Shown here in pieces: positions 7,086 through 34,565 of a DNA stretch of 34,887 bases. The notes under the pieces were generated by a model. It saw only the letters and a program-made list of their open reading frames with translations. It was not told where the DNA came from and ran no database searches. The stretch lies in IMG/VR virus record IMGVR_UViG_3300021079_000225, positions 1 through 34,887 of that record. One strand, 5' to 3'. The stretch is from a virus. Within the stretch, counting starts at the first letter, position 1; each line of letters starts with the position of its first letter. A program made the translations under genes and the position numbers.

Positions 7086-7102
7086 AACTTACTTTATTTT
7101 AA

Positions 7103-7702
7103 TTATATAATTTCTAAAGATAAACTATTGTATCTTACAAATTTATCAGGACAATATTTAAAAATATGTTCATTTTTTAATTGTCTAACATCTAAAGCAT
7201 AATGTCCATCGGCATTCCTATAACTAATATTATGTATGTATGTTTTTTTTAACATACAATACCTCATAATACAAGACCCGATATCAAAAAGACCTAAATC
7301 CAATCTATGTTCACCATCACCGTACAGTCTAATTTTTTCAGTTAAACCCGCCTTTTGTGAAAATAAAACTAAATCAACATCAGAATTTTTTTCTTCATTA
7401 TATGTTGAGATTAAATCCCAAGTAACAACATTGTCATCATCTAAAAAATAACACCAATCATTATCATCTACAGGTATATCAGTAATAAAATAATTCCTTT
7501 GTTCGTGACCCCAAATGTGTGAAGTGTCTATCTTATAAAATTTAACCCTATCATCTTCTTTTAAAAAACTAAAATCATCTTCTCCAATGGTATTACTACC
7601 CTTAATTAAATGCCAATTAAAATCCTCAACTTGATGTTTAATTGTTGAGTATATTGTCGTTAAATTATTATACCGATAAAGTGGGGTAATAAAATGTATC
7701 AT
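7103..7702 (-). CDS. Small GT-A (GT2-like) glycosyltransferase
   Basis: 199 aa starting MIHFITPLYRYNNLTTIYST. I chose the ATG at 7702, right after the stop of the preceding gene (7704), because a GT2-like fold opens with exactly such a strand; an upstream ATG at 7759 would add 19 residues overlapping the neighbour by more than 50 bases. The motif WCYFLDDDNVV is a typical DxD site for a metal-bound nucleotide sugar. It is shorter than standard GT2 enzymes (220-300 aa) and lacks membrane anchors. The following GT10 gene starts 17 bases on. Donor and acceptor unknown. Confidence 0.75.
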   Translation of the reverse strand: MIHFITPLYRYNNLTTIYSTIKHQVEDFNWHLIKGSNTIGEDDFSFLKEDDRVKFYKIDTSHIWGHEQRNYFITDIPVDDNDWCYFLDDDNVVTWDLISTYNEEKNSDVDLVLFSQKAGLTEKIRLYGDGEHRLDLGLFDIGSCIMRYCMLKKTYIHNISYRNADGHYALDVRQLKNEHIFKYCPDKFVRYNSLSLEII

Positions 7703-7703
7703 A

Positions 7704-8450: not shown

Positions 8451-8451
8451 A

Positions 8452-9840
8452 TTATAAATTATTTTTAACTTTCAAAGATAATTTAATTTTAAATTCTTTA
8501 TACCAATTAAAAACATTAGTTTTTAATTTTAAAAAATCTTCTTCGTTCATTTTATAATAATTCGTAATTTCATCCCAAGAATTAACTACAGGTAATGGAG
8601 AATCTCCCCAAACTTTAGTGAAATATTCCAAGTTATTATAATTCTTTAAGATAGGAATTGAGCCAGATTCTAAACATTCCATTAATCTAAATGAGTCAGG
8701 ATGAACCCATCCCATAGGACACGGAACAAATTTTGTTTTGTTGTAAATTGAAATACACTCATCTTGAGTTAATGATGTTGAACAATTCCATGAATTTGTT
8801 TTATGTATAAAAACATTTTCCATGCGTTCCATTACAGATAATAATTCTTGTCTATCTGATTTTGGTTGTCCAATAAAAACAAATTCATATTCTTTTGTAT
8901 CTAAAGAAGTTTCATTTTTGTTAATAAATCCTGTTTTTACACCTAAAGGAATGAAGGTAACATTTTGTGCGGTAATATTTGAGTCGTAATAATTTCTAAA
9001 TACATGATTCGCCTTTGAGTAATAATCGCAATTGTGACTTAAGTTTTCATTAGAAAAATGTAATAAATAAAAAGTATATCCAAGTTCAACAAATTTATTT
9101 AAATAGTTATTAAAATCATCAGATATGTTATTTGAATTATTGGAATAAATAATTACAGAATTATCTAATACTGTTGATAGTTGACCATCGTCAAATATTT
9201 TGTTGTGTTCAATATTTTTAAATAAAACTTCTGTTGTGTATTCAAATTCAAAATTTGTTTGGTCTCCATTAAATGTTTGCCAAATTAAGTTCAGAGGTTT
9301 TGTTTGTTTTCTATGAATTAAAAGTTTATTGTTATTATGTAATTCAAAAGGAATATTTTTTTCTTTAAACCATTCTATTGTATTAGCACAATCATACGCA
9401 TGTAAATCCTCAATAATGTATAACCCATTTTCTTTTAAATGAGGATATAACGCTTCAAAACTTTTAATGTGGTGAAAATGGGTATGAAGTCCATCATCAA
9501 TAATAATATCGTAATCACCACCATATTTACTTACACATTGGTTTAAATCCTCAGTTACGCTTTGGTCACCAATGAATATTTGAACATTTTCTTTTTCATA
9601 TTTTTTACAATCTTGATTTATGTCAAAGCCAATAAAATCTATATTTAAAAAAAACTCAGTCCACATTTGTATTGAAGCGCCAGGAAATCTTGGGTCAGCA
9701 ACACCTATTTCTAACATCTTAATTTTTTTGTTTTTTAATGGATAAAATAATTCTTGATATGTTTCGGTATAAGAGTGATATTCAAAATGTTGGGTACCTT
9801 TATCAGTACCAAGTCTATTCGCTATTTCTGTTAATGTCAT
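8452..9840 (-). CDS. Fusion of SAM methyltransferase and exostosin-like (GT47) glycosyltransferase
   Basis: 462 aa in two parts. Residues 1-180 form a class I SAM-dependent methyltransferase of the type seen with sugar/antibiotic methylation (MycE/TylF-like): the opening LGTDKGTQHFEYHSYTETY, a SAM-binding MLEIGVADP (42-50), the acidic GFDIN (71-75), and IIIDDGLH (112-119), which probably coordinates metal. Residues about 185-440 look like exostosin/GT47: IPLGVKTGF, FIGQPKSDR, then CPMGWVHPDSFRLMECLESG (374-393) followed by SIPIL, the usual P.G...S.R..E.L..G.IP nucleotide-sugar motif. One chain may add a sugar and O-methylate it, which would cap a glycan. The gene is 24 bases after the GT60-like gene. 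The fusion is continuous in one frame, with no sign of frameshift. Confidence 0.82.
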   Translation of the reverse strand: MTLTEIANRLGTDKGTQHFEYHSYTETYQELFYPLKNKKIKMLEIGVADPRFPGASIQMWTEFFLNIDFIGFDINQDCKKYEKENVQIFIGDQSVTEDLNQCVSKYGGDYDIIIDDGLHTHFHHIKSFEALYPHLKENGLYIIEDLHAYDCANTIEWFKEKNIPFELHNNNKLLIHRKQTKPLNLIWQTFNGDQTNFEFEYTTEVLFKNIEHNKIFDDGQLSTVLDNSVIIYSNNSNNISDDFNNYLNKFVELGYTFYLLHFSNENLSHNCDYYSKANHVFRNYYDSNITAQNVTFIPLGVKTGFINKNETSLDTKEYEFVFIGQPKSDRQELLSVMERMENVFIHKTNSWNCSTSLTQDECISIYNKTKFVPCPMGWVHPDSFRLMECLESGSIPILKNYNNLEYFTKVWGDSPLPVVNSWDEITNYYKMNEEDFLKLKTNVFNWYKEFKIKLSLKVKNNL

Positions 9841-9864
9841 AAATTAATAAGTTTTTATTTTTTT

Positions 9865-11130
9865 TTAACTTACCGCGTTGTGTGTTAATTGACCTGTTAT
9901 TCTATCACACCACCCTTTTGATTCTGAGTGAGGCCATACAACCCAATAAGATGGCATCTCATCAGTTTGGAACTCTCTCCATACTTTACAGTATTTGTCA
10001 GGGTCTCTCATGAAACCTGCAATTTCATTTTTGTCGGCATCTTTTCTAAATAAGGTTTCATCTTTATCGTTATGGAATGCAACAACCCAAAAATCATAAT
10101 CAGTTTCGGTTACTTGAGAATATCCAATATCAATACAATGTTTGAACATCATACAGAAACTATCTTTCCATTCTTGTTCCGTTTCAAAATTATAAGGATT
10201 TGGTGGATAATTTTTATCTAATGTGTATTTGTCAATTGCTCTTTTTTCAAATAAGATTCCCGAATATTTTTCATATTCAGTTAAAGTTCTAACGGTTCCA
10301 AAACCATAAGGACCATCATGTCCTTCTTGAGTTTCACCATCCATACCAAATAATTTTCTATTTGTTAAATGTGAGTGACTATTCTTTTGTCCCCAAGTTT
10401 TATCAATATCCCATTGTTTCGTTCTACCTTTACGGGTGTATTCGTGATAAACAACAGGAATATGTGGGTGGAACAAATCGTAACCCCAAGTGTAAGCTCT
10501 TGCCGCAATAGAGATTTCTTCTCCGTGAAAATAATATTCTGGGTTGTGTTGAACTTCGGTTGAGAACTGTCCTAATGTAAAACAGAAGTGAGCAGAATAG
10601 AATCTTGAAGTTACAGGTTTTTTCATTTCTCTCCAACCTGGAATTGTTTCAGGTAAAAAGAATACAGCTCCTTCGGGAATGAATCTATCAAATGCCATTC
10701 TCCAAGCTTCTTGTGAACGACCTGCTGGGTCATTGTCAGGGTCAAAAGATGGTACATAACCCGTAAGTAGAGGCTTCTTGTACCCATCTTTTTGTAGACC
10801 CTTAATCATCTTGATTAAGATATCATCCCAATCTTTGACAAATCTCATATGTGAATCTATCTGTAATGTATAGGTTTCACCTTTATAAAGTTGTTGGGTT
10901 AAGTTTCTCGCCCAACAAACACCCTTTGAGTCGGTATGAGGAATATCTAATATTCTAAATCTTTTATCGTTTCTCCATTCATCAATATTGTCAAAACCAT
11001 CTTCAGGATTAAATTGTCTTGCTATTGCAAATACAAGATTTTTTGGGTGTTTAGCGTTTGCCAACATATCTTTAATTGTTGGAACTAATTGTGGGTCGCA
11101 AAATGATGCAATTTGTGTAAAAATTTTCAT
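9865..11130 (-). CDS. GT60-like polypeptide GlcNAc-transferase (PF11397-type)
   Basis: 421 aa. The core matches the GlcNAc family (PF11397): KGVCWARNLTQQLYKGETYT (69-88) runs into LQIDSHMRF, in which D92-S-H94 is the DxH metal/UDP-sugar motif, and then FHGEEISIAARAYTWGYDLF (201-220) followed by HP, the analogue of the Gal/GalNAc-T motif of GT27 enzymes. Characterised GT60 members are Dictyostelium Gnt1, which modifies hydroxyproline on Skp1, and trypanosome enzymes that attach alpha-GlcNAc to Thr in mucins. Residues about 310-421 form an extra C-terminal region with no family I recognise. It is the first gene of the minus-strand GT set and lies about 1.1 kb downstream of genes encoding Thr/Pro-rich fibres, which are candidate substrates. 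A TATATTT box about 45 bases upstream is a possible promoter. Specificity for protein acceptors is inferred from family only. Confidence 0.85.
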   Translation of the reverse strand: MKIFTQIASFCDPQLVPTIKDMLANAKHPKNLVFAIARQFNPEDGFDNIDEWRNDKRFRILDIPHTDSKGVCWARNLTQQLYKGETYTLQIDSHMRFVKDWDDILIKMIKGLQKDGYKKPLLTGYVPSFDPDNDPAGRSQEAWRMAFDRFIPEGAVFFLPETIPGWREMKKPVTSRFYSAHFCFTLGQFSTEVQHNPEYYFHGEEISIAARAYTWGYDLFHPHIPVVYHEYTRKGRTKQWDIDKTWGQKNSHSHLTNRKLFGMDGETQEGHDGPYGFGTVRTLTEYEKYSGILFEKRAIDKYTLDKNYPPNPYNFETEQEWKDSFCMMFKHCIDIGYSQVTETDYDFWVVAFHNDKDETLFRKDADKNEIAGFMRDPDKYCKVWREFQTDEMPSYWVVWPHSESKGWCDRITGQLTHNAVS

Positions 11131-18376: not shown

Positions 18377-18670
18377 ATGGCACAACAAACAACTGTAGAT
18401 TTAAATCAAACAGAACAAAACGCACTAACAGCAATTGCTGTTGCAGAAAGAGCAAAACTTATTCCTAAGAATGATTACGATTCTATTGGAAATGAATATT
18501 CGGCGGTGAATAAAGACGCACTTGCAGACGGTGACTCTATGGGTAGAGGAACTGGCGGATTTTTAGATGTATACAACACAGGAGCTGGAACAATAGACGA
18601 TATTGTAGAAAGAAAAAGTGAAGTAAAAATCAATCAATACAACGCATCAAAAGTGTATCCTAATTTCTAA
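18377..18670 (+). CDS. Unknown small phage protein, 97 aa
   Basis: Begins MAQQTTVDLNQTEQNALTAI and contains DGDSMGRGTGGFLDVYNTGA, then GTIDDIVERKSEVKINQYNA. The Gly-rich centre flanked by charged helices suggests a small structural or adaptor protein, but no family is recognised. It starts 4 bases after the previous stop and its stop codon shares a base with the next ATG (TAATG), so it is part of the same translational unit. Confidence 0.72.
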   Translation: MAQQTTVDLNQTEQNALTAIAVAERAKLIPKNDYDSIGNEYSAVNKDALADGDSMGRGTGGFLDVYNTGAGTIDDIVERKSEVKINQYNASKVYPNF

Positions 18671-19050
18671 TGAAACTACAAGAAGCATTAAAAGGTTTAA
18701 TTTGTGAAATTGCTTCTATTGATAGTGTCGTTGATGCTATTAAACAGAAACAAAGAGTTATCATCTATTATGATGGCGATGAGCCAGGTGGTAGGGGTAT
18801 CAGAGAAATTGAACCCGTGTGCTTAGGTGTCAGTAAGGCAGGAAATAAAGTTTTAAGGGCTTGGGATAATGAAGGGGCGTCTCACACAGGATACAAAGGA
18901 GAACAACCCTTACCTGGATGGAGACTTTTTAGATTAGATAAAATCCTAACTTTAAAACCATCTGGAGAAAATTTCACAGAAATGAGACCAAATTTTAATC
19001 CAAATGGTGACAAAAGCATGACTAGCGTTATTATTATAAGTAAATTCTAA
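18670..19050 (+). CDS. Stand-alone WYL-like domain protein
   Basis: 126 aa. After a 20-residue helix, VDAIKQKQRVIIYYDGDEPG, REIEPVCLGVSKAGNKVLRA and GWRLFRLDKILTLKPSGENF follow the WYL pattern (aI...r.v.i.Y ... r.IeP..l..s..g...L.a ... fRldrI..l). WYL domains bind nucleic-acid or nucleotide ligands and normally occur fused to a helix-turn-helix or to CRISPR/defence effectors. Here there is no partner domain. It could sense single-stranded DNA or a nucleotide during infection, or have become structural. It shares one base with the upstream gene's stop. Confidence 0.65.
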   Translation: MKLQEALKGLICEIASIDSVVDAIKQKQRVIIYYDGDEPGGRGIREIEPVCLGVSKAGNKVLRAWDNEGASHTGYKGEQPLPGWRLFRLDKILTLKPSGENFTEMRPNFNPNGDKSMTSVIIISKF

Positions 19051-22242: not shown

Positions 22243-23880
22243 ATGATAACAATAGGATATTCAACAAGAGAACATAACCCAAAATATATTGAGTACTTAA
22301 AGAAAAGTTCAGGATATAAAAAAATTGAGGTTATTGAAAAAATTAATAATGGGGAGAAATCCCTTTCTCAAGTTTATAACGAAATACTTGAAGAATCAAA
22401 AACCGACATAGTAGTTTTATGTCACGATGACATTTATTTTGATACGACCGCATGGTTTCATAAAATTGAAAAGCATTTTGAAAAAAGTGATTATGGTATT
22501 TTAGGTGTTGCTGGTACCACACATATGTCGGAAACAGGAAGATGGTGGGAAACTAATCGTAGAAAAAACATGATTGGCATTGTTAATCATGAAAGTGGTG
22601 GAAAAAAATGGACATCAAAATACTCAGAAGAATTTGGTAATAACATTAGAGAAACCGTAATTGTTGATGGTGTTTTTATTGCCGTTAATAAACAAAGAAT
22701 TAAAACTAATTTTATAGAAGAATTTAACGGATTCCATTTTTATGATATATCATTTTGTTTTGAAAATCATTTAAAAGGTGTTAAAGTCGGTGTTATAACC
22801 AATATTAGAATAACTCATAAATCAATAGGACAAACCAATGAAAAATGGGAAGAAAATAGGGAATTATTTGTTAAAAAATATGGTGAAAATTTACCAGCAA
22901 AATGTCAATTTGACCCAAATAGAAGAATTAAAGTTTTACTATCTTGTTTATTTTTTAGAGGGTTTACAGGTTCAGAATTATATGTTTATGAACTCGCCAA
23001 AAGTTTAATGAAACTTAATTGTAGTGTAACTGTACTCTCACAAATCGGTGGGCCATTAACAGATATGGCAAAAAAGATAGGGATTAAATGTTTATCTTTT
23101 GAGGAAGCACCAGGGTTTAAACTTGGCGATGGGGTATGGGAATATCAAACACCAAATGGTGTACAAATATCAACTCTTAATGCGTTATATAAAACTTCCG
23201 AAGTTGATTATGATATTGTTCATATCCAACACAAACCTGTTGCAGAAAGAATTATTAATATGTACCCTGAATTAGATAAGGTTTGTACAATTCATTCTGA
23301 AGTAATGTCAAAAGAACTTGAAAATCCAATAATTAATGAAACCATTAAAAAATTCATCGCAATTAGACCTGAAATCAAATCACATTTAATTAATACTTTT
23401 AACGTACCTGAAGAATTAATTGAGGTTATTTATAACCCAATTGATAATGAAAAGTTCCAACCAAAAAATCTTCCATCTGAAAATTATATATTATTTGTTG
23501 GAACAATTGATTACTTAAGAAAAGAATCAATATTAGATTTAATTGAATATACCAGAGAAATTGGTAAAGAATTGTGGTTAGTTGGGGAAAACAATGGAAA
23601 TTATTTAGAAAATATTTTATTGGAACCTCATGTAAAACATTTCCCATCTACTTGGAATATTGAAAATTACATTTTAAAATCATCTGAAACCGCAGGAATT
23701 CAATTAGGTAGAACTACTATTGAAGGTTGGATGTGTGGTAAACCTAGTTGGATTTATAAAGTAGATTCTGATGGATTTATCTTATCTAAAGAAAAATTTG
23801 ACCCACCATCTGATATTGAAAAATATTACACATTAAATGTTGCACAAAAAATAAAAGACGAATATATAAAGATACTATAA
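22243..23880 (+). CDS. Two-domain glycosyltransferase: GT2 (Glyco_tranf_2_5-like) plus GT4
   Basis: 545 aa. Residues 1-220 fit the PF13712-type GT2 group: short first strand MITIGYSTREHNPKYIEYLK, VVLCHDDIYFD (H61-D-D63 as the DxD equivalent), VDGVFIAVNK, FNGFHFYDISFCFE, and a closing HKSIGQTNEKWEENRELF. From about residue 225 a GT-B domain starts (RIKVLLSCLFFRGFTGSELY) with a bound-donor half (ENYILFVGTIDYLRKE, ETAGIQLGRTTIEGWMCGKP) carrying the GT4 E...G motif. Both halves look intact, so one polypeptide may add two successive sugars. No membrane helices. It sits between dut and nadE with zero to one base of spacing. Confidence 0.87.
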   Translation: MITIGYSTREHNPKYIEYLKKSSGYKKIEVIEKINNGEKSLSQVYNEILEESKTDIVVLCHDDIYFDTTAWFHKIEKHFEKSDYGILGVAGTTHMSETGRWWETNRRKNMIGIVNHESGGKKWTSKYSEEFGNNIRETVIVDGVFIAVNKQRIKTNFIEEFNGFHFYDISFCFENHLKGVKVGVITNIRITHKSIGQTNEKWEENRELFVKKYGENLPAKCQFDPNRRIKVLLSCLFFRGFTGSELYVYELAKSLMKLNCSVTVLSQIGGPLTDMAKKIGIKCLSFEEAPGFKLGDGVWEYQTPNGVQISTLNALYKTSEVDYDIVHIQHKPVAERIINMYPELDKVCTIHSEVMSKELENPIINETIKKFIAIRPEIKSHLINTFNVPEELIEVIYNPIDNEKFQPKNLPSENYILFVGTIDYLRKESILDLIEYTREIGKELWLVGENNGNYLENILLEPHVKHFPSTWNIENYILKSSETAGIQLGRTTIEGWMCGKPSWIYKVDSDGFILSKEKFDPPSDIEKYYTLNVAQKIKDEYIKIL

Positions 23881-24659
23881 TGAATAGAATTATTGATTAC
23901 GAAAATTTATCAGAAAAAATTGAAAAGTGGATAAAAGAATACGTTGAGGTGAACGGAATTGAAACTCTTGTTGTTGGTGTTTCAGGAGGAATTGATTCGG
24001 CGGTAGTTTCTACCTTATGTGCAAGAACAGGAATTTCAACTATTGCTGTTGGTATGCCACTAAATTCAAAACCTGAAAACACAAGATTATCTGAAGCACA
24101 ATTAGATTTTCTATCAAAATTAAATGTTAACACAATTGAGGTTGAATTAAGTGAGACATTCAAAAAATTTGAAGTTAGTATACCTAACCATCTCAAATCT
24201 GATTTGTCAAACGCAAATAGTAAATCAAGATTAAGAATGATAACACTGTATCATATTGCCACAACCGTTAAAGGTATTGTTGTTGGAACAGGAAATAAAG
24301 TTGAAGATTTTGGTGTTGGGTTTTTTACTAAGTATGGTGATGGTGGAGTTGATATTTCTCCAATTGCTGACCTATATAAAACAGAGGTTAGAGAACTTAG
24401 TCGTTATTTAGGTATTCCTGAAGAAATAATTAACGCAATCCCAACAGATGGTTTATGGGAAGATGACAGGAATGATGAACAACAAATTGGAGCAACCTAT
24501 GAAGAATTAGAATGGGTGATGGAATATGGTTTAGATAAATGTTCAACCACAGAAAAAGAATATAATATCACTAAGATATTTGAAACTTTTAATAAAAAAA
24601 ATAATCACAAAATGGTACCAGTACCAATTTTTGATTTAAAACAAAATGAGATTATATGA
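23880..24659 (+). CDS. nadE: NH3-dependent NAD+ synthetase
   Basis: 259 aa, near the length of bacterial ammonia-dependent NadE; no glutaminase domain. Converts nicotinate adenine dinucleotide, ATP and ammonia to NAD+. Motifs: PP-loop SGGIDS (35-40) for ATP, SKSRLRMITLYHIA (the R-x-R/M.LY segment), GTGNKVEDFGVGFFTKYGDG for the deamido-NAD pocket and metal, and a C-terminal IPTDGLWEDDRNDEQQIGAT loop. It overlaps the next gene, an NAD-dependent sugar dehydrogenase, in ATGA, and starts one base inside the preceding GT stop. Likely roles are sustaining NAD+ for sugar oxidation, or countering host defences that deplete NAD+. Both are inferred. Confidence 0.94.
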   Translation: MNRIIDYENLSEKIEKWIKEYVEVNGIETLVVGVSGGIDSAVVSTLCARTGISTIAVGMPLNSKPENTRLSEAQLDFLSKLNVNTIEVELSETFKKFEVSIPNHLKSDLSNANSKSRLRMITLYHIATTVKGIVVGTGNKVEDFGVGFFTKYGDGGVDISPIADLYKTEVRELSRYLGIPEEIINAIPTDGLWEDDRNDEQQIGATYEELEWVMEYGLDKCSTTEKEYNITKIFETFNKKNNHKMVPVPIFDLKQNEII

Positions 24660-25813
24660 AAATAGGAATTATTGGTGCAGGAAGATTAGGATTAACTTTC
24701 GCCCTATTATGTGAAAAAAATGGATATGATGTAATCGTATCCGATGTTAGAGAAGATTATGTATTTAACTTAAACCAAAAAATTTGTTTAACAAATGAAC
24801 CCCTGATTCAATCAATGTTACTTGAAGTTAAGAACTTCAGTGCAACAACTAATAATATTGATGTCATACAAAATTCTGATATGATTTTTACATTTGTTGC
24901 AACACCATCAACATTAAATGGAAATTACGATACCACAAAAGTATTTGAAGTTGTTGGTGATTTTTACACAGCATCTTCATCAGGTGTTCCAATTCACAAC
25001 AAAAAATTTATTGTTGGATGTACCACAAATCCTGGAGACGTTGAGCAAATACAAAACAGATTAAATATGTTTAATGTTCAAGTGGCATATAACCCTGAAT
25101 TTATTGCACAAGGAGAGATTGTTAAAGGACTTGAACAATCGGATATTGTTTTAATTGGTACGGAATATACTGAATTATCAAATGAATTAATTGAATTATA
25201 TAATAGAATTCAAACAACAAATGTTAATGCATATGTAATGTCTACAAAGGCCGCTGAAATAACTAAAATAGGTATAAATTGTTTTTTAACCACAAAAATA
25301 AGTTATGCGAATATGATGGGTGATATTATGATTAAGGCGGGAATTCAAGATGAAATTGATATGGTTTTAAATGCAATTGGGGGTGATTCAAGAGTTGGTA
25401 AAAAATATTTAAAATACGGTTTTGGGTTTGGTGGACCGTGTCTACCAAGAGATAATAGAGCTTTAGGTCACTATTCAAAAAATCTTGGTATGGAATTAAA
25501 CTTACCACTAACCGTGGATGAGTTTAATAAGGAACACGCCAGTTTTATTAAAGATTATTATATACAAAAAAACCCTGACAAGGGTGTACCATTTGTTATG
25601 AATTATATTACATATAAAAAAGGAACAGATATATTAGAAGAATCACAACAATACCAATTATGTATTGATTTATTAACTGAAGGGTATTACGTTAATGTAA
25701 TTGAAATTGATTCTGTTGCAAAAAAATTAACTCCAATAAGCGAATCTTATAATAACAGACTTAAATTTTTTAAACCAGGAACAAATCCCGAAGGATATAA
25801 AATTAACTTATAA
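24656..25813 (+). CDS. UDP-sugar 6-dehydrogenase (UDP-Glc/UDP-GlcNAc type)
   Basis: 385 aa. Oxidises the C6 alcohol of a UDP-hexose to the uronic acid using two NAD+. Visible: the Rossmann motif GIIGAGRLGLTFA (4-16), FTFVATPS with the substrate-loop Thr/Pro (79-85), the YNPEFIAQGE segment (145-154), the central Lys/Asn-rich helix (STKAAEITKIGINCFLTTKI), and the catalytic cysteine in GFGFGGPCLPRDNRA (Cys262). It is somewhat shorter than usual UGD/WbpA enzymes (about 390-440). Sequence alone does not tell UDP-Glc from UDP-GlcNAc as substrate. Genes for a WbpB-like oxidoreductase and a WbpD-like acyltransferase downstream favour a WbpA-like role with UDP-GlcNAc. Coupled to nadE by a 4-base overlap. 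Confidence 0.92.
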   Translation: MKIGIIGAGRLGLTFALLCEKNGYDVIVSDVREDYVFNLNQKICLTNEPLIQSMLLEVKNFSATTNNIDVIQNSDMIFTFVATPSTLNGNYDTTKVFEVVGDFYTASSSGVPIHNKKFIVGCTTNPGDVEQIQNRLNMFNVQVAYNPEFIAQGEIVKGLEQSDIVLIGTEYTELSNELIELYNRIQTTNVNAYVMSTKAAEITKIGINCFLTTKISYANMMGDIMIKAGIQDEIDMVLNAIGGDSRVGKKYLKYGFGFGGPCLPRDNRALGHYSKNLGMELNLPLTVDEFNKEHASFIKDYYIQKNPDKGVPFVMNYITYKKGTDILEESQQYQLCIDLLTEGYYVNVIEIDSVAKKLTPISESYNNRLKFFKPGTNPEGYKINL

Positions 25814-25820: not shown

Positions 25821-26486
25821 ATGAAACTACTAATTAAATTCCCAACAAAAGGTCGTAAACAAAAATTTTTTGAAGTTTTTAACCATTATCAAAATTTATG
25901 TGAAGACTTAGATAATACTTATTTTTTAGTCACATTAGATAATGATGATGAAAATATGAAACTCTCTGAAGTTGAGGAAATGTTTAATACCTTTAAAAAT
26001 GTTAAAGTAATTTATGGTGATAGTACTTCTAAAATACATGCCATTAATAGGGATATTGAAATGATTAACGATTGGGATATTGTTCTATTAGCGTCTGACG
26101 ATATGACACCAAAAGTTAAAGGATATGACAATATCATTCGTAATAAAATGAAAGAACTTTATCCTGACACCGATGGTATTTTATGGTTTAATGATGGTCA
26201 TATGGGAAATAAATTAAATACCTTATGTATTCTTGGAAAAAAATATTACGATAGATTTGGTTATATTTATCATCCCGAATATAAATCAGTTTGGTCTGAT
26301 AATGAATTTATGATGGTAGGTGATTTACTTGGAAAACAAACCTATTTTGACGAAGTTATTATTGAACATGAACATCCTGATTGGGGATATGGTGGTAGAG
26401 ATGATATTCATCAAATCAACTCAAAGAATGAAAATCACGATAGATTACTTTTTGCAAAAAGAAAAGAAAATAATTTTTATCTATGA
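25821..26486 (+). CDS. GT-A glycosyltransferase, 221 aa
   Basis: Starts MKLLIKFPTKGRKQKFFEVF, a GT2-like first strand with the 'ptkGR' loop, followed by LVTLDNDDENM, KIHAINRDIEMINDWDIVLL, and ASDDMTPK as the DxD-type site; the later HPDWGYGGRDD is rich in catalytic-type residues. I read it as a GT2-like enzyme in a small family often seen in phage and marine bacterial glycan loci. No membrane segment. It begins 7 bases after the dehydrogenase stop and ends in an ATGA overlap with the next gene. Substrate unknown. Confidence 0.72.
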   Translation: MKLLIKFPTKGRKQKFFEVFNHYQNLCEDLDNTYFLVTLDNDDENMKLSEVEEMFNTFKNVKVIYGDSTSKIHAINRDIEMINDWDIVLLASDDMTPKVKGYDNIIRNKMKELYPDTDGILWFNDGHMGNKLNTLCILGKKYYDRFGYIYHPEYKSVWSDNEFMMVGDLLGKQTYFDEVIIEHEHPDWGYGGRDDIHQINSKNENHDRLLFAKRKENNFYL

Positions 26487-27133
26487 AAAAAATAATAAGT
26501 TTTTCTCTTTGGGGTAATAACCCAAAATACACTATTGGAGCAATAAAGAACGCCGAATTAACCCCTTTAATTTACCCCGAATGGGTCTCAAGATTTTATT
26601 GTGGAAAATCAGTTCCGGTAGAAATTATTGAAAAATTAAAATCGTTACCACAAACAGAAGTTATTATGATGGAAGTTGATGGTGATTGGACCGGAATGTT
26701 TTGGAGATTTTACGCTTGTAAAGATTCTGATATTATGATTTCAAGAGATGTTGATAGTAGATTAGGTAACAGAGAAAAATTAGCAGTAGACGAGTGGTTA
26801 AAATCGGATAAAGACTTTCATATTATGAGAGACCATCCACATCACGCTACGGAAATATTAGGTGGTATGTGGGGATGTAGAAATGGAATTTTAAATGATA
26901 TTGAGTCAGAGATTATAAAATATAATAAAGGTAATTTTTGGCAAGTTGACCAAAATTTTTTAAAAGAAAAAATTTATCCAAAAATTTTAAAAAATTGTTT
27001 TGTACACGATTCGTTTTTTAAAATTGAAGTTAATTCTAAACAATTCCCATCTGAAAGAATCAACAAAGAGTTTGTTGGTGATGTTTTTGATAAAAATGAC
27101 ATCCGACATCCTGATTATTTTAAATTTTTATAA
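26483..27133 (+). CDS. Probable glycosyltransferase, 216 aa
   Basis: Begins MKKIISFSLWGNNPKYTIGA, a nucleotide-binding-like first strand, then SRFYCGKSVPVEIIEKL, MFWRFYACKDSDIMISRDVD with the DVDSR acidic motif, and HIMRDHPHHATEILGGMWGC. The R-D-x-D-S-R motif plus the later W-Q-V-D-Q segment are characteristic of a group of uncharacterised bacterial glycosyltransferase-like proteins. Cytoplasmic. Overlaps the previous gene by 4 bases. Donor and acceptor cannot be read. Confidence 0.68.
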   Translation: MKKIISFSLWGNNPKYTIGAIKNAELTPLIYPEWVSRFYCGKSVPVEIIEKLKSLPQTEVIMMEVDGDWTGMFWRFYACKDSDIMISRDVDSRLGNREKLAVDEWLKSDKDFHIMRDHPHHATEILGGMWGCRNGILNDIESEIIKYNKGNFWQVDQNFLKEKIYPKILKNCFVHDSFFKIEVNSKQFPSERINKEFVGDVFDKNDIRHPDYFKFL

Positions 27134-27145
27134 AAAAATTAAATT

Positions 27146-27958
27146 ATGAAAATAGATAGAGTTTTACTTGCGAGTAATAATAATAAATTATATTATGAAT
27201 TTTGGAATCATGCCAGTAAAGTGTATCATGAAAAATTTGGATTAAAACCCACTTTAATTTGGGTTGGTACCGAAGAAGAAAAAAAAGAGTGTAATATTTC
27301 AGAGGAATTTGGTGAAGTAATTATTACACAACCAAACGATAATTACCCAATTAATTCACAATGTACTTTGGCCTCATATTGGGCAACTCAATTTTTTCCT
27401 GAAGATGTATGTTTTATTTGTGGAATTGATGAAATTGCATTATCAAGTTGTTTTATAAAAGAAATGGTAAAAGAATATTCAGATGATGATTATTTAATGT
27501 TAATCGCTGACGCATATGGAACCCAACATTGGTCAATCCCAAATAGCGTAAGTCCCAGTGGTTATCATGTTGGTAAAGGTAAAATTTTCTCAGACATTTA
27601 TCAATTTAAAAAAGAATTTGATGAAACCATTGAAATAGTTATGTCTTCCAAAATTTTAGAAAAATATCTTGAGGCCAATAATGGTGGATATGCCTCTGAA
27701 AATTTAAATTGGGGAATGGATGAAACTTATATTAGTTATAAATTACGAGAATACAATGGTGATTTTAAACTTATTAGTTTAAATAATTTTACAATTATGC
27801 AAAATACTCGTATTGAATGTTTTAGAAATACGGAAACTCCATATAATATGGATAAATTAAGAAATGGTGAATATTCACACTCTCATTTATGTAGACCCTT
27901 TAGTAATCATAAAAATTATATTTTAAATATGTTTAACAACATTCCAAAATCAATTTAA
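27146..27958 (+). CDS. Unknown glyco-operon protein, possible GT-A fold
   Basis: 270 aa. I do not recognise the family with certainty. The start MKIDRVLLASNNNKLYYEFW resembles a GT first strand followed by a helix. VCFICGIDEIALSSCFIKEM gives a D-x-E that could act as a DxD, and NLNWGMDETYISYKLREY is similar to late acidic motifs of GT-A enzymes. LIADAYGTQHWSIPNSVSPS and a closing SHLCRPFSNHKNYILNMF add conserved-looking His and Arg residues. The context among glycosyltransferases supports a glycan role. It starts 12 bases after one gene and ends 5 bases before the next. Confidence 0.55.
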   Translation: MKIDRVLLASNNNKLYYEFWNHASKVYHEKFGLKPTLIWVGTEEEKKECNISEEFGEVIITQPNDNYPINSQCTLASYWATQFFPEDVCFICGIDEIALSSCFIKEMVKEYSDDDYLMLIADAYGTQHWSIPNSVSPSGYHVGKGKIFSDIYQFKKEFDETIEIVMSSKILEKYLEANNGGYASENLNWGMDETYISYKLREYNGDFKLISLNNFTIMQNTRIECFRNTETPYNMDKLRNGEYSHSHLCRPFSNHKNYILNMFNNIPKSI

Positions 27959-27963
27959 TTATT

Positions 27964-28563
27964 ATGTACAAATATTCAAAAATAATAGAAATATTAAAAA
28001 GTAAAACAGTTGAGTTAAGACATGACGTTGATATTTCATTAATTTCCGCTTATAAAATGGCTAAATATGAAAAAGAAATGGGTGTTAAATCAATATATTA
28101 TATTAGATTTGATTCAGATTATTATAATGTATTAAGTTATGAAAGTTATAAAATCATTAATTTTTTAATTGAAAACCATGAAATAGGATGTCATGTTGAT
28201 GTTACAAACATTAATGATGAAATTGATTTATTAAATTATTTAAATAGATATAAAAAAATAATTGATTTTAATAAATTTACATTTCACATTAATACTGAAA
28301 AAACAAAATTATTTACAGATGTTGATGGTTATTTAAATAAATCAATACTTAAAAGTGAATATATATCGGATTCAAAAAACACATTTAATAAAAAAATATT
28401 AAATAAAATTATTGAATTGGATGAGTACACTCTATTAATACATCCTGAATGGTGGGATAATAAAGATTTTATATTTAATAAAAATAGTAAAAATGCGTTA
28501 ATCTCATCGATGAGACATAACCGACTAAAAAAAACGGCAATTAATGAAATATTAAAAAAATAA
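27964..28563 (+). CDS. Polysaccharide deacetylase-like (NodB/CE4-type) protein
   Basis: 199 aa. VELRHDVDISLISAYKMAKY (16-35) has the H-D-V-D block (H20, D21, D23) of CE4-like enzymes, GVKSIYYIRFDSDYYN follows as the second strand, and NHEIGCHVDV (71-80) supplies the H...H metal-binding pair (H72, H77). LLIHPEWW near the C-terminus is the usual late histidine motif. In sugar pathways such proteins remove N- or O-acetyl groups. It is shorter than a typical NodB domain plus flanks, with a very Lys/Asn-rich end. Close neighbours are an acyltransferase with two hexapeptide domains and sugar dehydrogenases, so it may edit acetylation of an amino sugar. Directly abuts the next ATG. Confidence 0.75.
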   Translation: MYKYSKIIEILKSKTVELRHDVDISLISAYKMAKYEKEMGVKSIYYIRFDSDYYNVLSYESYKIINFLIENHEIGCHVDVTNINDEIDLLNYLNRYKKIIDFNKFTFHINTEKTKLFTDVDGYLNKSILKSEYISDSKNTFNKKILNKIIELDEYTLLIHPEWWDNKDFIFNKNSKNALISSMRHNRLKKTAINEILKK

Positions 28564-29556
28564 ATGAGCGAAAGATTAAATTTTATTAGAAGTTTATTAG
28601 AAAAAGAAATAACTCCATCAGAAATAGAAATTGGTGAAAATTGTATTATTTGTGATACCGCTAAATTAGGTAATGATGGATTTGGTTTTGAACCCGATGA
28701 GAATGGTAATTTAATTTATTTTCCTCATTTTAAAGGAGTTAAAATTGGTAATAATGTTAGAGTTGGTTCATACACCTGTATTGATAGAGGAAATTTAAAT
28801 GATACAATAATTGGTAATGGTGTTAAAATTGATAATTTAGTTCATATTGCCCATAATGTAAAAATTGGTGATAACACATTAGTAGTTGCTGGTTCGGTAA
28901 TTTGTGGTTCAGTAGTAATTGGTAATAATTCGTTTATTGGTGCTAAATCAGTAATTAGAGAACATTTAAAAATTGGTAATAATGTTACAATAGGAATGGG
29001 GTCAGTAGTGACTAAAAATATTCCAGATGGTGAAACATGGGCCGGAAATCCTGCTAAAAAAATTGATAAGTTTGATTATTTTAAACATAAAACCTCAATT
29101 GTTGAGTCTAAAAATATAGGGAAAAATACTAAAATATGGTCAAATTCTCACATTTGCGAAAATGTTAAAATAGGTATAAATTGTGTTATTGGTGAAAACG
29201 TATATGTTGGTCCAAATGTTATCATAGGTAATAATTGTAAAATCCAAAATAATTCTTTAATTTATGAAGGGGTAACAATAGAAGATGATGTTTTTATTGG
29301 ACCTAATGTAGTAACAACTAATGATTTTAATCCAAGAGTTGGTGGTGATTGGATAAACGACGGTAGATTTAGAAAAACTCTTTTTAAAAAAGGTTGTAAT
29401 ATTGGTGCGAACTCTACAATAATTTGTGGTGTTGAGATTGGTGAAAACTCATTAGTTGGTGCCGGTTCAGTTGTAACAAAAAATGTTCCAAATAATACAG
29501 TTGGATTTGGTAACCCGTATAAAATAAAAAAAAATAAAATTAATTTAAATGACTAA
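28564..29556 (+). CDS. Double left-handed beta-helix acyltransferase (LpxD-like plus WbpD/WlbB-like)
   Basis: 330 aa with two hexapeptide-repeat domains. Residues about 1-165 resemble LpxD: NDGFGFEPDENGN, YTCIDRGNLNDTIIGNG, VKIDNLVHIAHNVKIGDNTL, with the likely catalytic His in AHNV. Residues about 175-325 resemble WbpD/WlbB, the UDP-3-amino-uronate N-acetyltransferase: TKIWSNSHICENVKIG, NNCKIQNNSLIYEGVTIEDD, VFIGPNVVTTNDFNPRVGG, KGCNIGANSTIICGVEIGEN, GAGSVVTKNVPNNTVGFGNP. In P. aeruginosa WbpD acetylates the 3-amino group of a UDP-GlcNAcA derivative with acetyl-CoA. The fusion could acylate two amino groups of one sugar. Neighbours encode a 6-dehydrogenase and a WbpB-like enzyme. Confidence 0.88.
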   Translation: MSERLNFIRSLLEKEITPSEIEIGENCIICDTAKLGNDGFGFEPDENGNLIYFPHFKGVKIGNNVRVGSYTCIDRGNLNDTIIGNGVKIDNLVHIAHNVKIGDNTLVVAGSVICGSVVIGNNSFIGAKSVIREHLKIGNNVTIGMGSVVTKNIPDGETWAGNPAKKIDKFDYFKHKTSIVESKNIGKNTKIWSNSHICENVKIGINCVIGENVYVGPNVIIGNNCKIQNNSLIYEGVTIEDDVFIGPNVVTTNDFNPRVGGDWINDGRFRKTLFKKGCNIGANSTIICGVEIGENSLVGAGSVVTKNVPNNTVGFGNPYKIKKNKINLND

Positions 29557-29599
29557 TGAAGAATTACTAATATTATTAGAAAATAATTTTAATATATGA
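29549..29599 (+). CDS. Bridging mini-ORF MTNEELLILLENNFNI
   Basis: 16 codons: starts 5 bases before the stop of the acyltransferase gene and ends in an ATGA overlap with the next gene. It fills the only gap of more than 20 bases in this part of the operon. It may be a coupling peptide that carries ribosomes across, or the leftover start of a deleted gene; the WbpE-type aminotransferase expected here in a complete pathway is missing. It could also be chance. Confidence 0.3.
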   Translation: MTNEELLILLENNFNI

Positions 29600-30609
29600 A
29601 AAAACATAAAGTTGGTATAATTGGTTGTGGAGTAATACTACCAAGACATATTGAATCAATAGAATCTAATGATAATTTTGAATTAGTTTCGTTATGTGAT
29701 ATCCAAGAGGATTTGGTAAAAGAAACATCTAAAAAATATAATACAAATCATTTTACTAATTACAAAGAAATGATTAAAAATTCAGATATAAATTTTGTAA
29801 CAATTGCAACCCCAAACTCACTTCACTATGAACAAGCAATTTTTGCAATGGAAAATGGGTGTGATGTCCTAATTGAAAAACCAGTTTCTTTTTCTAAAAA
29901 AGAAATTTTAGAGTTAATAGAAATTTCAAAAAAAAATAATAGAAAAGCGTATTGTGTGTTGCAAGTGAGGTTAAATCCAACCGTAGAATTTTTAAAAGAA
30001 ATTTTATTTAATAATATATTAGGAGATATTAGGTCAGTTAATTTTATCCAAAGATGGCAAAGACCTGTTGAGTATTTTACAGGATGGAGGTCATATCCAA
30101 AAATAGGTGGTGGAACTTTATATGAGGTGGGTATTCATTATTTAGATATTATACAACATGTGTTTGGTCAACCAATTGTACATAGTTCTAAAATATATAA
30201 AACAAAACACGTTTCGGTTGATATTGAAGATACAATTTATTCTATTTTAGATTTTGGTAATTTTGGTGGTACTTGTGAAGTTACAATTGCTGCCGAACCA
30301 AGTAATTTAGAATGTTCAATTTCTGTTTTAGGTTCAAACGGATTTGTTAAAATTGGTGGTAAATCTTTAAATGTAATTGAATCGGGAACTTTTTTATCTT
30401 ATGGACATCAAAAAGAATTTGAAAGAATTAAAAAGAAGTATTCAATATCTGTAGAACCCAATAATTATGGCTCTTATCAAGGTTCGTGCCCTAACCACCC
30501 ATATGTTTATCAAAATTTAAATCAGTTTAAACTTGAGGAGTCAATAAATGTTATAGAGCTAATTGAAGAAATTTATAATAAATCAAATATTAAATATAAT
30601 CGTATATGA
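29596..30609 (+). CDS. Gfo/Idh/MocA oxidoreductase, WbpB/WlbA-like
   Basis: 337 aa. The N-terminal Rossmann fold starts HKVGIIGCGVILPRHIESIE, followed by VTIATPNSLHYEQAIFAMEN and the family signature DVLIEKPVSFSKKEILELIE with the catalytic Lys in EKP. The C-terminal alpha/beta domain has QRWQRPVEYFTGWRSYPKIG, GGTLYEVGIHYLDIIQHVFG with the catalytic-type His, and SVDIEDTIYSILDFG. These features are close to WbpB/WlbA, which oxidise C3 of UDP-GlcNAc-uronate to the 3-keto sugar with NAD+ recycled by 2-oxoglutarate. The next step needs a PLP aminotransferase (WbpE), which I do not see in the window. The stop overlaps the next ATG by 4 bases. Confidence 0.85.
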   Translation: MKKHKVGIIGCGVILPRHIESIESNDNFELVSLCDIQEDLVKETSKKYNTNHFTNYKEMIKNSDINFVTIATPNSLHYEQAIFAMENGCDVLIEKPVSFSKKEILELIEISKKNNRKAYCVLQVRLNPTVEFLKEILFNNILGDIRSVNFIQRWQRPVEYFTGWRSYPKIGGGTLYEVGIHYLDIIQHVFGQPIVHSSKIYKTKHVSVDIEDTIYSILDFGNFGGTCEVTIAAEPSNLECSISVLGSNGFVKIGGKSLNVIESGTFLSYGHQKEFERIKKKYSISVEPNNYGSYQGSCPNHPYVYQNLNQFKLEESINVIELIEEIYNKSNIKYNRI

Positions 30610-31343
30610 AAAATGGGTATGTAACCTTTGTAAATGACAACCTAAATTATTTAAAATTATGTGATATTTTAGTTGAAAGTGTAATAAATTTTTCAGAAAA
30701 TCCAATAGAAGTTTTTTCAATTAACTTTGATTATAAACACTCAAGTGAAAAAGTGATATCAAGAAGAATTGATTTACAAACTGTTGGGTTTAACACAATT
30801 TGTTACTCAAAACTTTATTCCTCAATCAACACTAGTTTTGATAAGGCAGTTCAATTAGATGCTGATTTTATAATTACTAAACAAATGGATAAATTATTTG
30901 ATTTAATTGATGATAATTTAAAATTACCTTTATGTTCTCTCCATACTCAAGACCCTAATAATCAAAAAAACATAATGGACATTTTAGGAGTAAATAATAA
31001 ATCACAATATTATGTTCACGGAACTTATTTATTTTCTAAACAAACAAAAGATTTTCTTAAAGAATGTTATGATTTTTCACAATATTGTTTAAAAAATAAT
31101 ATTTCACCGGGAAATTTTGATGAAACAATATTAAACGTAATGCTTTGGAAAAATCAAACAACTGATAGTTGGGTGTATCCATATGATATATGGTACGATA
31201 CGTTTATTAATCCTGAAAACAGATTTGGTTATCCTGAAAGTTATGATTTAAAGTTTTATTCATCTCATGGATGTAAAGACCCTGAATTTGCTAATCAAAT
31301 ATTCAACAAAATAAAGAATGATGAATTTAAACATTTAAAATAA
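30606..31343 (+). CDS. GT8-like glycosyltransferase
   Basis: 245 aa. MKNGYVTFVNDNLNYLKLCD followed by LVESVINFSENPIEVFSINF is the typical GT8/GT-A start, and FDKAVQLDADFIITKQMDKL carries the DAD metal/nucleotide-sugar motif in the right place (about residue 80). QYYVHGTYLFSKQTKDFL and NFDETILNVMLWKN match the later G..lf and DE.xlN parts of the fold. Retaining transferase predicted; sugar unknown. Overlaps the oxidoreductase gene by 4 bases. Confidence 0.75.
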   Translation: MKNGYVTFVNDNLNYLKLCDILVESVINFSENPIEVFSINFDYKHSSEKVISRRIDLQTVGFNTICYSKLYSSINTSFDKAVQLDADFIITKQMDKLFDLIDDNLKLPLCSLHTQDPNNQKNIMDILGVNNKSQYYVHGTYLFSKQTKDFLKECYDFSQYCLKNNISPGNFDETILNVMLWKNQTTDSWVYPYDIWYDTFINPENRFGYPESYDLKFYSSHGCKDPEFANQIFNKIKNDEFKHLK

Positions 31344-31347
31344 CAAA

Positions 31348-32187
31348 ATGAAAATATTAATTATCCAAGAAAATGGTAGACATGATAAAAACAGAATTTT
31401 TAGAGAATGTTTTTGTTTACAAAGAGGTTTTGAAAAATTAGGTGTAACTTCAATAGTTTGGGGATTGGGTCATGATAATTATAATCAAGTTCCTGACTTT
31501 GAATCTTTTGATTTAATTATCAATTTAGAAAATTATGGAAATGGGTGGGAACCTAATTTATCAAATATCAAAACAAAAAAATTTTTATGGTCAATTGATG
31601 CACATTGTAGAGGTGAACAACCGTTTATTCAAGAATTTATTAGAGGTAATTATAATATTTTACTACATTCTACAAAAGATTTTGTTGACCAAAATTTTAA
31701 AATATGGTTTCCAAATGCGTTTGATGATACATTAATTTATCCAAAACAGTTAGAAAAAAAATGTGATGTAGGATTTTGTGGAAGTTTATTAAACAGAGGT
31801 CAAATGATATCGTTACTTCAAAATAAATACAATTTTATTCATGATAATTTTGTAATTGGTAATGACATGGTCAATGCTGTTAATTCTTATAAAATACATT
31901 GGAACAAAAATTTATCAAATGACATTAATTATAGAAATTTTGAGACAATTGGGTGTGGAGTACCCTTAGTTACTAACTATCACTATCAATATGAAGAATT
32001 AGGATTTAAACATATGGAAAATGCAATATTTTATAACAATATTGATGATATGTTTTCAAAAATTGATTTGGTCCTATCTGATGAAAATTTGATGAAGTCT
32101 ATAGGTGAAAATGGTTATTTACTTTCTAAAAAACACACATATGTTAAAAGGAGTGAACAAATTTTAGAATTATATTCTAAACTATAA
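31348..32187 (+). CDS. CgeB-like (GT-B fold) glycosyltransferase
   Basis: 279 aa. MKILIIQENGRHDKNRIFRE starts the first Rossmann domain. CDVGFCGSLLNRGQMISLLQ and NDINYRNFETIGCGVPLVTN are the CgeB/Glyco_trans_1_2-type motifs, the second being the N.R.fE..gcG.PLvt donor-binding block. The closing helix (DLVLSDENLMKSIGENGYLL, then HTYVKRSEQIL) is normal for GT-B enzymes. It is shorter than many CgeB proteins (about 330-370 aa). It lies 4 bases after the previous gene. Confidence 0.84.
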   Translation: MKILIIQENGRHDKNRIFRECFCLQRGFEKLGVTSIVWGLGHDNYNQVPDFESFDLIINLENYGNGWEPNLSNIKTKKFLWSIDAHCRGEQPFIQEFIRGNYNILLHSTKDFVDQNFKIWFPNAFDDTLIYPKQLEKKCDVGFCGSLLNRGQMISLLQNKYNFIHDNFVIGNDMVNAVNSYKIHWNKNLSNDINYRNFETIGCGVPLVTNYHYQYEELGFKHMENAIFYNNIDDMFSKIDLVLSDENLMKSIGENGYLLSKKHTYVKRSEQILELYSKL

Positions 32188-32205
32188 TTGATTTAAAATA
32201 AAACT

Positions 32206-32925
32206 ATGATAATACTAACAACAACATTTAATTGTGAAAAATATATTGAAAAATCTTTACTCAGTGTTATGGGTCAAAGATTTAAAGATTTTACTTGTTA
32301 TATTACTGATGATATGTCAACCGACAATACGGTTAATATTGTTAAAGATTTAATTAAAAATGACGATAGATTTATATTAATTGAAAATAAAATAAAGAAG
32401 TATCAATGTGGAAATTACGACCAAATAATTCGTGAATTAAATATTTCAGATGATGAAATTTGTATTGAAGTTGATGGTGACGATTGGTTACCCAACTCTA
32501 ATGTTTTTTTAAAAATTAATGAAATTTATAATGATAGTGATGTATGGATGACTAGCGGGTCATTTAAAGATTATGATGGTAGAGGTTGTGCTGAAGGATT
32601 CACAACTCCACCAGAAAGTTTTAATAATATAAGAAAATTAAGATTTACATTATCGCATTTAAGAACATGGAAATCTTGGTTATGGAAAAAAATTAAACAA
32701 GAAGATTTAAAAAACTCCGAAGGAAATTATTGGAGTGTTGCTGGAGATTTGGCTTTTATGTTTCCAATGTTTGAAATGTCAGGTGAAAAACATTATAGAC
32801 ATATTTCGGATATCAACTACATTTATAATCGTTTAAATCCATTAAATGATTTTAGAGTTAATGAGAACATCGCTAACTCAATTGATAAAATAATTAGAAA
32901 TAAACAACCTTATAATAACCTATGA
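32206..32925 (+). CDS. GT2 family glycosyltransferase
   Basis: 239 aa with the classic GT2 pattern: MIILTTTFNCEKYIEKSLLS, VMGQRFKDFTCYITDDMSTD (Asp for UDP), NTVNIVKDLI, and ICIEVDGDDWLPN (DGDD as DxD). Later parts have LRTWKSWLWKK and WSVAGDLAFMFPMFEMSG, with GDLAF in place of the usual ED acceptor motif. Inverting transfer from a nucleotide sugar predicted. No C-terminal membrane helix, so soluble. It starts 18 bases after the previous gene and overlaps the methyltransferase gene by 4. Confidence 0.92.
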   Translation: MIILTTTFNCEKYIEKSLLSVMGQRFKDFTCYITDDMSTDNTVNIVKDLIKNDDRFILIENKIKKYQCGNYDQIIRELNISDDEICIEVDGDDWLPNSNVFLKINEIYNDSDVWMTSGSFKDYDGRGCAEGFTTPPESFNNIRKLRFTLSHLRTWKSWLWKKIKQEDLKNSEGNYWSVAGDLAFMFPMFEMSGEKHYRHISDINYIYNRLNPLNDFRVNENIANSIDKIIRNKQPYNNL

Positions 32926-33740
32926 CAAAAACAGTAAAAGATGTTAAAAATTATTGGGATAATAGACCATGTAATATTAAACATTCAAAAAAAGAAATTG
33001 GTAGTAAAGAATATTTTAATGATGTAGAACATCGTAAATATTTTGTAGAACCTCATATACCAAAATTTGCAGAATTTGATAAATGGAAAGGTAAAAAAGT
33101 TTTAGAGATTGGGTGTGGTATTGGTACCGACTCAATAAATTTTGCAAAGGCTGGAGCAATATTAACATGTGTTGAACTATCGGAAAAATCTTTAGAATTA
33201 TGTAAAAAAAGATTTGAATTATTTGGATTACAGGCTAATTTTTATTCGGCAAATGCTGAAAAATTATCTAAAGTTGTTCCAATTGAAGAGTATGATTTAA
33301 TATACTCTTTTGGGGTTATCCATCACACACCAACACCACAAAATGTGTTTGATGAAATCAAAAAATACATGAACAAAAATACTGAAGTTCGTATAATGCT
33401 TTACGCTAAACATTCTTGGAAAACATTTGAGTTTTTTATTAAAAATGGTTATAAATTTAATTTTAATTTAAATAAAACAATACAATATTATGCCGAGGCA
33501 CAATTAGATTGTCCTGTTGCATTAACATACACTAAAAAAGAATTAAAAAATATTTTACAAGATACAAATGATTTTAAAATCATTTCTCTTAAAAAAGACC
33601 ACATATTTCCGTATGTAATTAAAGACTATATAAATCACACATACAATAAAAAAACTATAATTAAAATTATACCAAAAGGTATTTTTAATTATTTAGAGTC
33701 AATCCTTGGTTGGCATTGGTTAATAAAATTTAAAAAATAA
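32922..33740 (+). CDS. Class I SAM-dependent methyltransferase
   Basis: 272 aa. Motif I VLEIGCGIGTDSINFAKAGA (residues about 46-65) binds SAM, motif II acidic VELSEKSLELCKKRF, post-II NAEKLSK and motif IV YDLIYSFGVIHHTPTPQNVF are all clear (Methyltransf_11/25 type). The C-terminal half (QYYAEAQLDCPVALTYTKKE) is a substrate lid. Sugar O-methylation fits the context, but C- or N-methylation is not excluded. Coupled to the GT2 gene by ATGA, and 3 bases before the fucosyltransferase gene. Confidence 0.9.
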   Translation: MTKTVKDVKNYWDNRPCNIKHSKKEIGSKEYFNDVEHRKYFVEPHIPKFAEFDKWKGKKVLEIGCGIGTDSINFAKAGAILTCVELSEKSLELCKKRFELFGLQANFYSANAEKLSKVVPIEEYDLIYSFGVIHHTPTPQNVFDEIKKYMNKNTEVRIMLYAKHSWKTFEFFIKNGYKFNFNLNKTIQYYAEAQLDCPVALTYTKKELKNILQDTNDFKIISLKKDHIFPYVIKDYINHTYNKKTIIKIIPKGIFNYLESILGWHWLIKFKK

Positions 33741-33743
33741 ATT

Positions 33744-34565
33744 ATGATAACATCAAGTAATATTGGAGATAATGGTAGATTTGGTAATCAGTTATTTCAA
33801 TTCGCATCTTTAATTGGTATTGGAGACAAATTAAATTATGATGTAGTTTTCCCTAAAAAAAATTTAAGCCCTATTAATGTCTCATCAACTAGGGAAAATA
33901 AAACTTTTGTTGCTTATTTTGAAATAAATGAATGTTTTGACATTGACCAAAAATATTTTACAAATGATTTGGTAATCAATGAAAGAGTAACTGAAAGATT
34001 TTTTCACTTTGACGAAAACTTGTTTAACATTAAAGATAACACAGATGTTATAGGGTATATGCAATCAGAAAAATATTTTAAACATTGTTCAGATAAGATA
34101 ATGGATACTTTAAAATTTAAAGATTCTATTTTATTGTCCGCAAAATCATACTTACCAAAAACAGATAAAACTTTAGTGTCAATTCATGTTAGAAGAACTG
34201 ACGCCGCAGTGCCTAACCCATTTCACCCATTAACAGGGTTAGATTTCTTTAATCCTGCAATAGAACATTTTAATAAAGATGAACACCATTTTGTGGTTTG
34301 TTCTGACGATTATGAATGGTGTAATAATGTTTGGGGAAATGACGAAAACTTTACTGTTGTTAATTCAAAATCACCTTATGTTGATTTATGTGTTATGTCA
34401 CTATGTGACCACCACATAATCTCAAATAGTTCATTCAGTTGGTGGAGTAGTTACTTATCAAAAAATAAAAATAAAAAAATCATCGCTCCAATTAAATGGC
34501 TCGGTACGGGGTATTCAACATACATTACCGATGATTTATATACTGAAAATATGATAAAATTATAA
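33744..34565 (+). CDS. GT11 alpha-1,2-fucosyltransferase-like enzyme
   Basis: 273 aa, the usual bacterial GT11 length. Motifs: DNGRFGNQLFQFASLIGI (9-26), the G.GNQlfQya start; TLVSIHVRRTDAAVPNP, the GDP-fucose binding HxRRTD block; and CVMSLCDHHIISNSSFSWWS, the third family motif with N-S-S-F-S-W-W. Predicted transfer of L-fucose from GDP-fucose in alpha-1,2 linkage to a terminal galactose or similar sugar. Together with the GT10 enzyme on the other strand this gives the phage two unrelated fucosyltransferases. Cytoplasmic. Three bases after the methyltransferase stop. Confidence 0.92.
   Translation: MITSSNIGDNGRFGNQLFQFASLIGIGDKLNYDVVFPKKNLSPINVSSTRENKTFVAYFEINECFDIDQKYFTNDLVINERVTERFFHFDENLFNIKDNTDVIGYMQSEKYFKHCSDKIMDTLKFKDSILLSAKSYLPKTDKTLVSIHVRRTDAAVPNPFHPLTGLDFFNPAIEHFNKDEHHFVVCSDDYEWCNNVWGNDENFTVVNSKSPYVDLCVMSLCDHHIISNSSFSWWSSYLSKNKNKKIIAPIKWLGTGYSTYITDDLYTENMIKL

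Follow-up and report, generated by a model that had tools for sequence, protein, structure and literature searches.

In a phage glycan operon, a gene for a NAD+ synthetase (nadE) overlaps a gene for a sugar dehydrogenase (UGD), and in the phages related to it the fate of nadE follows the catalytic state of UGD. The two genes are neighbours in many aquatic phages. We consider it reasonably probable that the pair acts as a metabolic module of the glycan operon, in which NAD+ supply sustains the double oxidation performed by UGD. Comparative sequence evidence supports the identities of the enzymes, the conservation of their pairing, and a dependence of nadE on UGD being active. That NAD+ supply, and not another NadE product, would be UGD's gain, that the NAD pool would be limiting, and which sugar acid would be made, are points that we infer.

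nadE and UGD overlap within a compact glycan operon

The studied DNA, here called the window, is a single IMG/VR virus record (IMGVR_UViG_3300021079_000225) of 34,887 bases. The following features were identified:

22243-23880 (+), two-domain glycosyltransferase, 545 aa, 5' of nadE (PF13712 + PF13439; synteny)
23880-24659 (+), nadE, single-domain ammonia-type NAD+ synthetase, 259 aa (PF02540, TIGR00552, phrog_11189)
24656-25813 (+), UGD, NDP-sugar 6-dehydrogenase of the UDP-glucose/GDP-mannose dehydrogenase family, 385 aa (PF03721, PF00984, TIGR03026, phrog_9148)
24656-24659 (+), ATGA overlap of the UGD start and the nadE stop (sequence)
25821-34565 (+), further glycan genes of the operon, 3' of UGD (scans with Pfam, NCBIfam and PHROG)

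The downstream region encodes a hexapeptide acyltransferase, a Gfo/Idh/MocA oxidoreductase, glycosyltransferases, a methyltransferase, a GT11 protein and proteins without a family match. The original prediction had placed an overlapping nadE and 6-dehydrogenase gene inside a glyco operon. Coordinates and sequence agree with the ATGA overlap, and family scans of the neighbours confirmed glycan genes on both sides of the pair. The nadE start in turn shares one base with the glycosyltransferase stop codon (TAATG), and this glycosyltransferase lies directly 5' of UGD also in relatives without nadE, as judged by synteny. ATGA occurs at 5 of the 19 operon junctions and TAATG at 3 of the 19, indicating a compact operon. 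Because ATGA junctions are common in the operon, the nadE/UGD overlap alone is ordinary, and it was rejected as the sign of a special link between the two genes. Translational coupling from nadE to UGD may be read from the overlap.

Other regions of the window contain further genes of note. Upstream (5') of the glycan operon, positions 18670-19050 (+) encode a small WYL-domain protein (E 1.4e-5), a possible ligand-sensing regulator. A second glycosyltransferase gene cluster (GT10-like, GlcNAc-type, RXYLT1_C, HtrL_YibB) occupies 2885-11130 (-), and an LCIB-like carbonic anhydrase family protein (PF18599, E 1.2e-26) is encoded in this phage at 13792-14874 (-).

The phage NadE retains a conserved NAD+ synthetase active site

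NadE matched PF02540 with an E value of 1.7e-55 (188 bits, cut-off 21) and TIGR00552 with 205.8 bits (cut-off 63.65). It consists of a single domain without a glutaminase, and shares with its family (PF02540, TIGR00552, phrog_11189) this domain layout, the fold, the ATP loop and the residues for nicotinic acid adenine dinucleotide (NaAD), ATP and Mg. The SGGxDS ATP loop and the Mg/ATP residues (G33-S40, D39, T137, E142, K167, T189) are invariant in 81 phage NadEs. The B. subtilis enzyme served as reference (PDB 1ee1, identical over all 271 chain residues); its deamido-NAD binding residues are R137, K170, D177, H257 and K258. The putative deamido-NAD positions of the phage protein, R117, K151, D158, H243 and K244, are invariant in the 81 phage and 80 cellular NadEs, so that ATP, Mg and deamido-NAD positions form one active site common to both groups.

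In 17 cellular genomes that carry the window-type NadE subfamily (Flavobacteriia, Desulfobacterota, SAR11, Poseidoniales and others), it is the sole full-length NAD synthase; other PF02540 matches in these genomes are short and partial. Compared with the PDB, an AlphaFold model of NadE (mean pLDDT 86) matched both NAD and NMN synthetases. The nearest solved structure, in sequence as well as in fold, was 3fiu, a Francisella NMN synthetase, with an identity of only ~29%. Judged by its conserved residues, the phage protein looks like a genuine ammonia-dependent NAD+ synthetase. In a quick NadE tree with weak support, two SAR11-type cellular NadEs (L136, L145) fall among the phage NadEs, a placement that suggests exchange of nadE between phage and host.

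UGD partners of nadE belong to two subfamilies

UGD scored 195 bits against TIGR03026 (cut-off 189.8) and also matched PF03721 and PF00984. It keeps the Rossmann motif GxGxxG and the catalytic Glu, Lys, Asn and Cys (E148, K204, N208, C262), which it shares with the UDP-glucose/GDP-mannose dehydrogenase family (TIGR03026, phrog_9148). It differs from that family in being a short form and in having a sister set of relatives without the active site. Among the specific equivalog models scanned for the sugar substrate, none reached its own cut-off. Oxidation by UGD uses two NAD+ per nucleotide-sugar, and this NAD+ is reduced, not consumed.

The UGD partners of nadE comprise two subfamilies. Type A, to which the window UGD belongs, has about 360-390 aa and a GGPC motif, and type B about 410 aa and GGGC. 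Many phage UGDs have no nadE nearby. Since type B UGDs mostly occur without nadE, yet are catalytically intact by their residues, phage UGD function does not in general require nadE; hosts may differ in NAD supply.

Pairing of nadE and UGD is specific to one phage nadE lineage

Phage nadE loci were dereplicated at 95%, leaving 63, and genes were called abutting when they overlapped or lay up to 30 nt apart. UGD abuts nadE in 40 of the 63 loci; in a further 11 the distance is at most 1.2 kb, and in another 4 at most 6 kb. Thus it is found ≤6 kb from nadE in 55 of 63 and is absent from 8, many of the loci being related, so that these counts are not independent events. Both gene orders (nadE first or UGD first) were seen, each with ATGA overlaps, and sometimes one gene lies between the two. 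Counted by record, UGD is present in 34 of the 37 that bear nadE. No UGD was detected in some nadE records (L075, L033 and L048). A nadE without a nearby UGD adjoins, for example, a GT2 gene or groEL.

In GenBank, 15 phage records carry window-type nadE, from cyanophages, a pelagiphage, marine single-cell viruses and a jumbo phage, and each of them has a UGD within about 1 kb. A detectable UGD was found in none of 34 GenBank phage records with a distant nadE, and near none of 80 cellular nadE homologues (flanks up to 8 kb each side). The phage-borne nadE beside UGD therefore contrasts with its cellular relatives, and only phages of the window-type nadE lineage show the association. The original prediction had proposed a comparison of nadE operon neighbours, and would have been refuted if nadE in related phages were never near sugar dehydrogenases; the comparison found adjacency to be the rule in this lineage.

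Several loci depart from the usual arrangement. In L078:4043-6735 and L081:4025-6735, nadE is located directly 3' of groES/groEL-like genes, and the L078 record has a UGD ~20 kb away. In L064:5020-6786, NadE shares a reading frame with a glycosyltransferase-like domain 5' of it (weak match to RXYLT1_C), with UGD directly next. In L060:6740-8203 and in Pelagibacter phage HTVC008M (L347:6464-7996), nadE has an overlapping or adjacent neighbour that encodes a carbamoyltransferase.

In Synechococcus phage S-SSM7 and Pelagibacter phage HTVC008M, the same two families have already been annotated side by side, gene by gene. Each gene is known and annotated in isolates, and we class the pair among phage metabolic gene modules. 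A search of open-access papers found no description of the nadE-UGD pair or of the dead UGDs described below.

Most type A UGDs without nadE lack an intact active site

Among 59 distinct type A UGD loci, nadE is adjacent in 40 and within 6 kb in 7, and 9 have long flanks and no nadE. In these 9 the remaining operon order is unchanged, with the glycosyltransferase, then UGD and usually a GT2. In two cases with short flanks (L216, L241), nadE is present elsewhere in the record. The catalytic residues were compared in all type A sequences, UGDs being called dead from their residues. With nadE in reach, 84 UGDs are intact and none is dead; with nadE absent, 2 are intact and 7 dead (Fisher p 4e-9, sequences counted regardless of kinship). 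Cys262 is replaced by S, T, S, S, I, Y and L in L165, L167, L169, L170, L172, L196/197 and L198, respectively. Glu148 is also lost in 6 of the 7, and several are without the GxGxxG glycines. The two intact type A UGDs without nadE (L230, L235) both fall outside the clade of the window.

No nadE was found anywhere in the available stretches of the dead-UGD records (51-142 kb for the main ones). A scan with L167 yielded eight more relatives (L331-L338), all dead and none with nadE in the available flanks. Inspection of neighbouring ORFs at loci without nadE revealed no replacement amidotransferase beside UGD.

The dead UGDs retain frames of 384-386 aa and a match to the UGD fold. Pairwise dN/dS values were 0.09-0.32 for dead UGDs and 0.03-0.11 for intact pairs, many synonymous distances being near saturation. 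By these measures the dead UGDs are under purifying selection with weaker constraint and, given intact frames, fold match and dN/dS, they are kept for some presumably non-catalytic use. In the best tree they occupy two places, both nested among nadE-bearing phages; because of this nesting, the dead-UGD phages probably descend from phages that once had nadE. The data do not reject a single dead-UGD clade (p-AU 0.133) and contain just two independent pairs that are informative, so that the co-loss of nadE and UGD activity represents only one or two events. Because dead-UGD operons keep their other glycan genes and not nadE, the way in which the fate of nadE follows the catalytic state of UGD connects NadE with the reaction of UGD or with what that reaction yields.

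NAD+ supply and alternative roles of NadE

In the mechanism that we favor, NadE would amidate host-made NaAD to NAD+ using ATP and ammonia, and the overlapping genes would lead to NadE and UGD being made together. UGD would then reduce two NAD+ per nucleotide-sugar, yielding a sugar acid for the phage glycan, and the extra NAD+ would keep this double oxidation going while the host NAD pool stays constant or declines in the infected cell. Since UGD reduces NAD+ without consuming it, the need for supply is not obvious, and the reading requires a limiting NAD pool during infection. The original prediction reasoned from two NAD+ per sugar to NAD+ synthesis feeding glycan building. Its premise, the use of two NAD+, stands; a requirement for new NAD+ does not follow from it alone.

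The tie to UGD could also be a tie to its product. WbpS and WbqG are AsnB-type amidotransferases in bacterial O-antigens and A-LPS. They act on a product of the UGD pathway (PMC7468200), so uronamides derived from such products are known, and a NadE-like enzyme could similarly adenylate and amidate the sugar acid made by UGD; no NAD+ would be made, and "NAD synthetase" would be a misnomer. Such a role directly explains why nadE follows UGD specifically and goes when UGD dies, and it fits the one NadE fused to a glycosyltransferase-like domain. WbpS and WbqG themselves belong to the AsnB family (PF00733), while the nadE studied here is PF02540, and PF00733 was above cut-off in 0 of 23 related records. 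The putative NaAD positions are nevertheless all conserved and match those of cellular NadEs that are sole NAD synthases, and nadE is also present in phage records without a detected UGD. Because of this intact NaAD site and these records, NAD+ supply is favored over uronamide amidation, which was set aside as the main reading and which we regard as very improbable. Equally improbable is its corollary, that phages which no longer make the sugar acid discard nadE and retain the dead dehydrogenase as a protein without catalytic function. The resemblance to 3fiu raises a different product. NadE might convert NaMN to NMN, as Francisella NadE* does, with a host or phage NMN adenylyltransferase completing NAD+. 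The low identity to 3fiu, the sole-copy NAD synthases among the cellular relatives, and the conserved C-terminal HK and other NaAD positions all speak against this, and we hold it to be the least probable of the alternatives. In a search for a linked NMNAT, CTP_transf_like was found in 17 of 37 records; this is a broad nucleotidyltransferase family with nothing NMNAT-specific, and the candidate was rejected.

Other explanations loosen the link to UGD. NadE might help to rebuild NAD+ after the action of host NADases (TIR, SIR2 and others), its position beside UGD being incidental. Rebuilding of NAD+ by phages is known: NARP1 (Adps + Namat) reconstitutes it from ADP-ribose and nicotinamide and so counters NADases (PMC12774641), and in L078 and L081 nadE adjoins groES/groEL instead of glycan genes. 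Like NARP1, the genes described here would make NAD+ in a phage, but they comprise a lone NadE, predicted to act on NaAD and tracking UGD; as its substrate, this lone NadE can use only host-made NaAD. The original prediction had noted that a lone NadE is not the described reconstitution set. PF04095 (NAMPT/NAPRT) occurs in only 1 of 37 related records, which also led us to reject linked NAMPT genes as partners, and no Namat/NAMPT-type transferase of this family is present among the window proteins scanned with Pfam. A purely defensive role does not predict that type A UGDs without nadE should mostly lack their active site, as observed; it is therefore disfavoured and we judge it improbable, though a defensive side benefit is possible. 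The preference of the original prediction for metabolism over defence is thus partly supported, by the pairing and the co-loss, and is weaker as to mechanism. Finally, nadE might raise the NAD pool at large, or simply travel with glycan cassettes, with no specific need on the part of UGD. The compact junctions throughout the operon and the nadE genes found beside GT2 or groEL fit such a loose association. The pair, however, persists through swaps of gene order and with two UGD subfamilies, and dead-UGD operons retain other glycan genes with no nadE in the record, so that we consider this explanation unlikely, if less so than the others.

NAD+ supply to UGD remains our preferred reading. The phage pathways known to make NAD+, NARP1 among them, are interpreted as counter-defence. 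The synthetase described here is widespread in phages and follows a working sugar dehydrogenase, which points instead to a metabolic contribution to glycan synthesis. A natural test set is provided by relatives that share the operon and differ in whether nadE is present and whether UGD is live or dead, and the dead but selectively kept phage dehydrogenases pose a separate puzzle that is directly testable.
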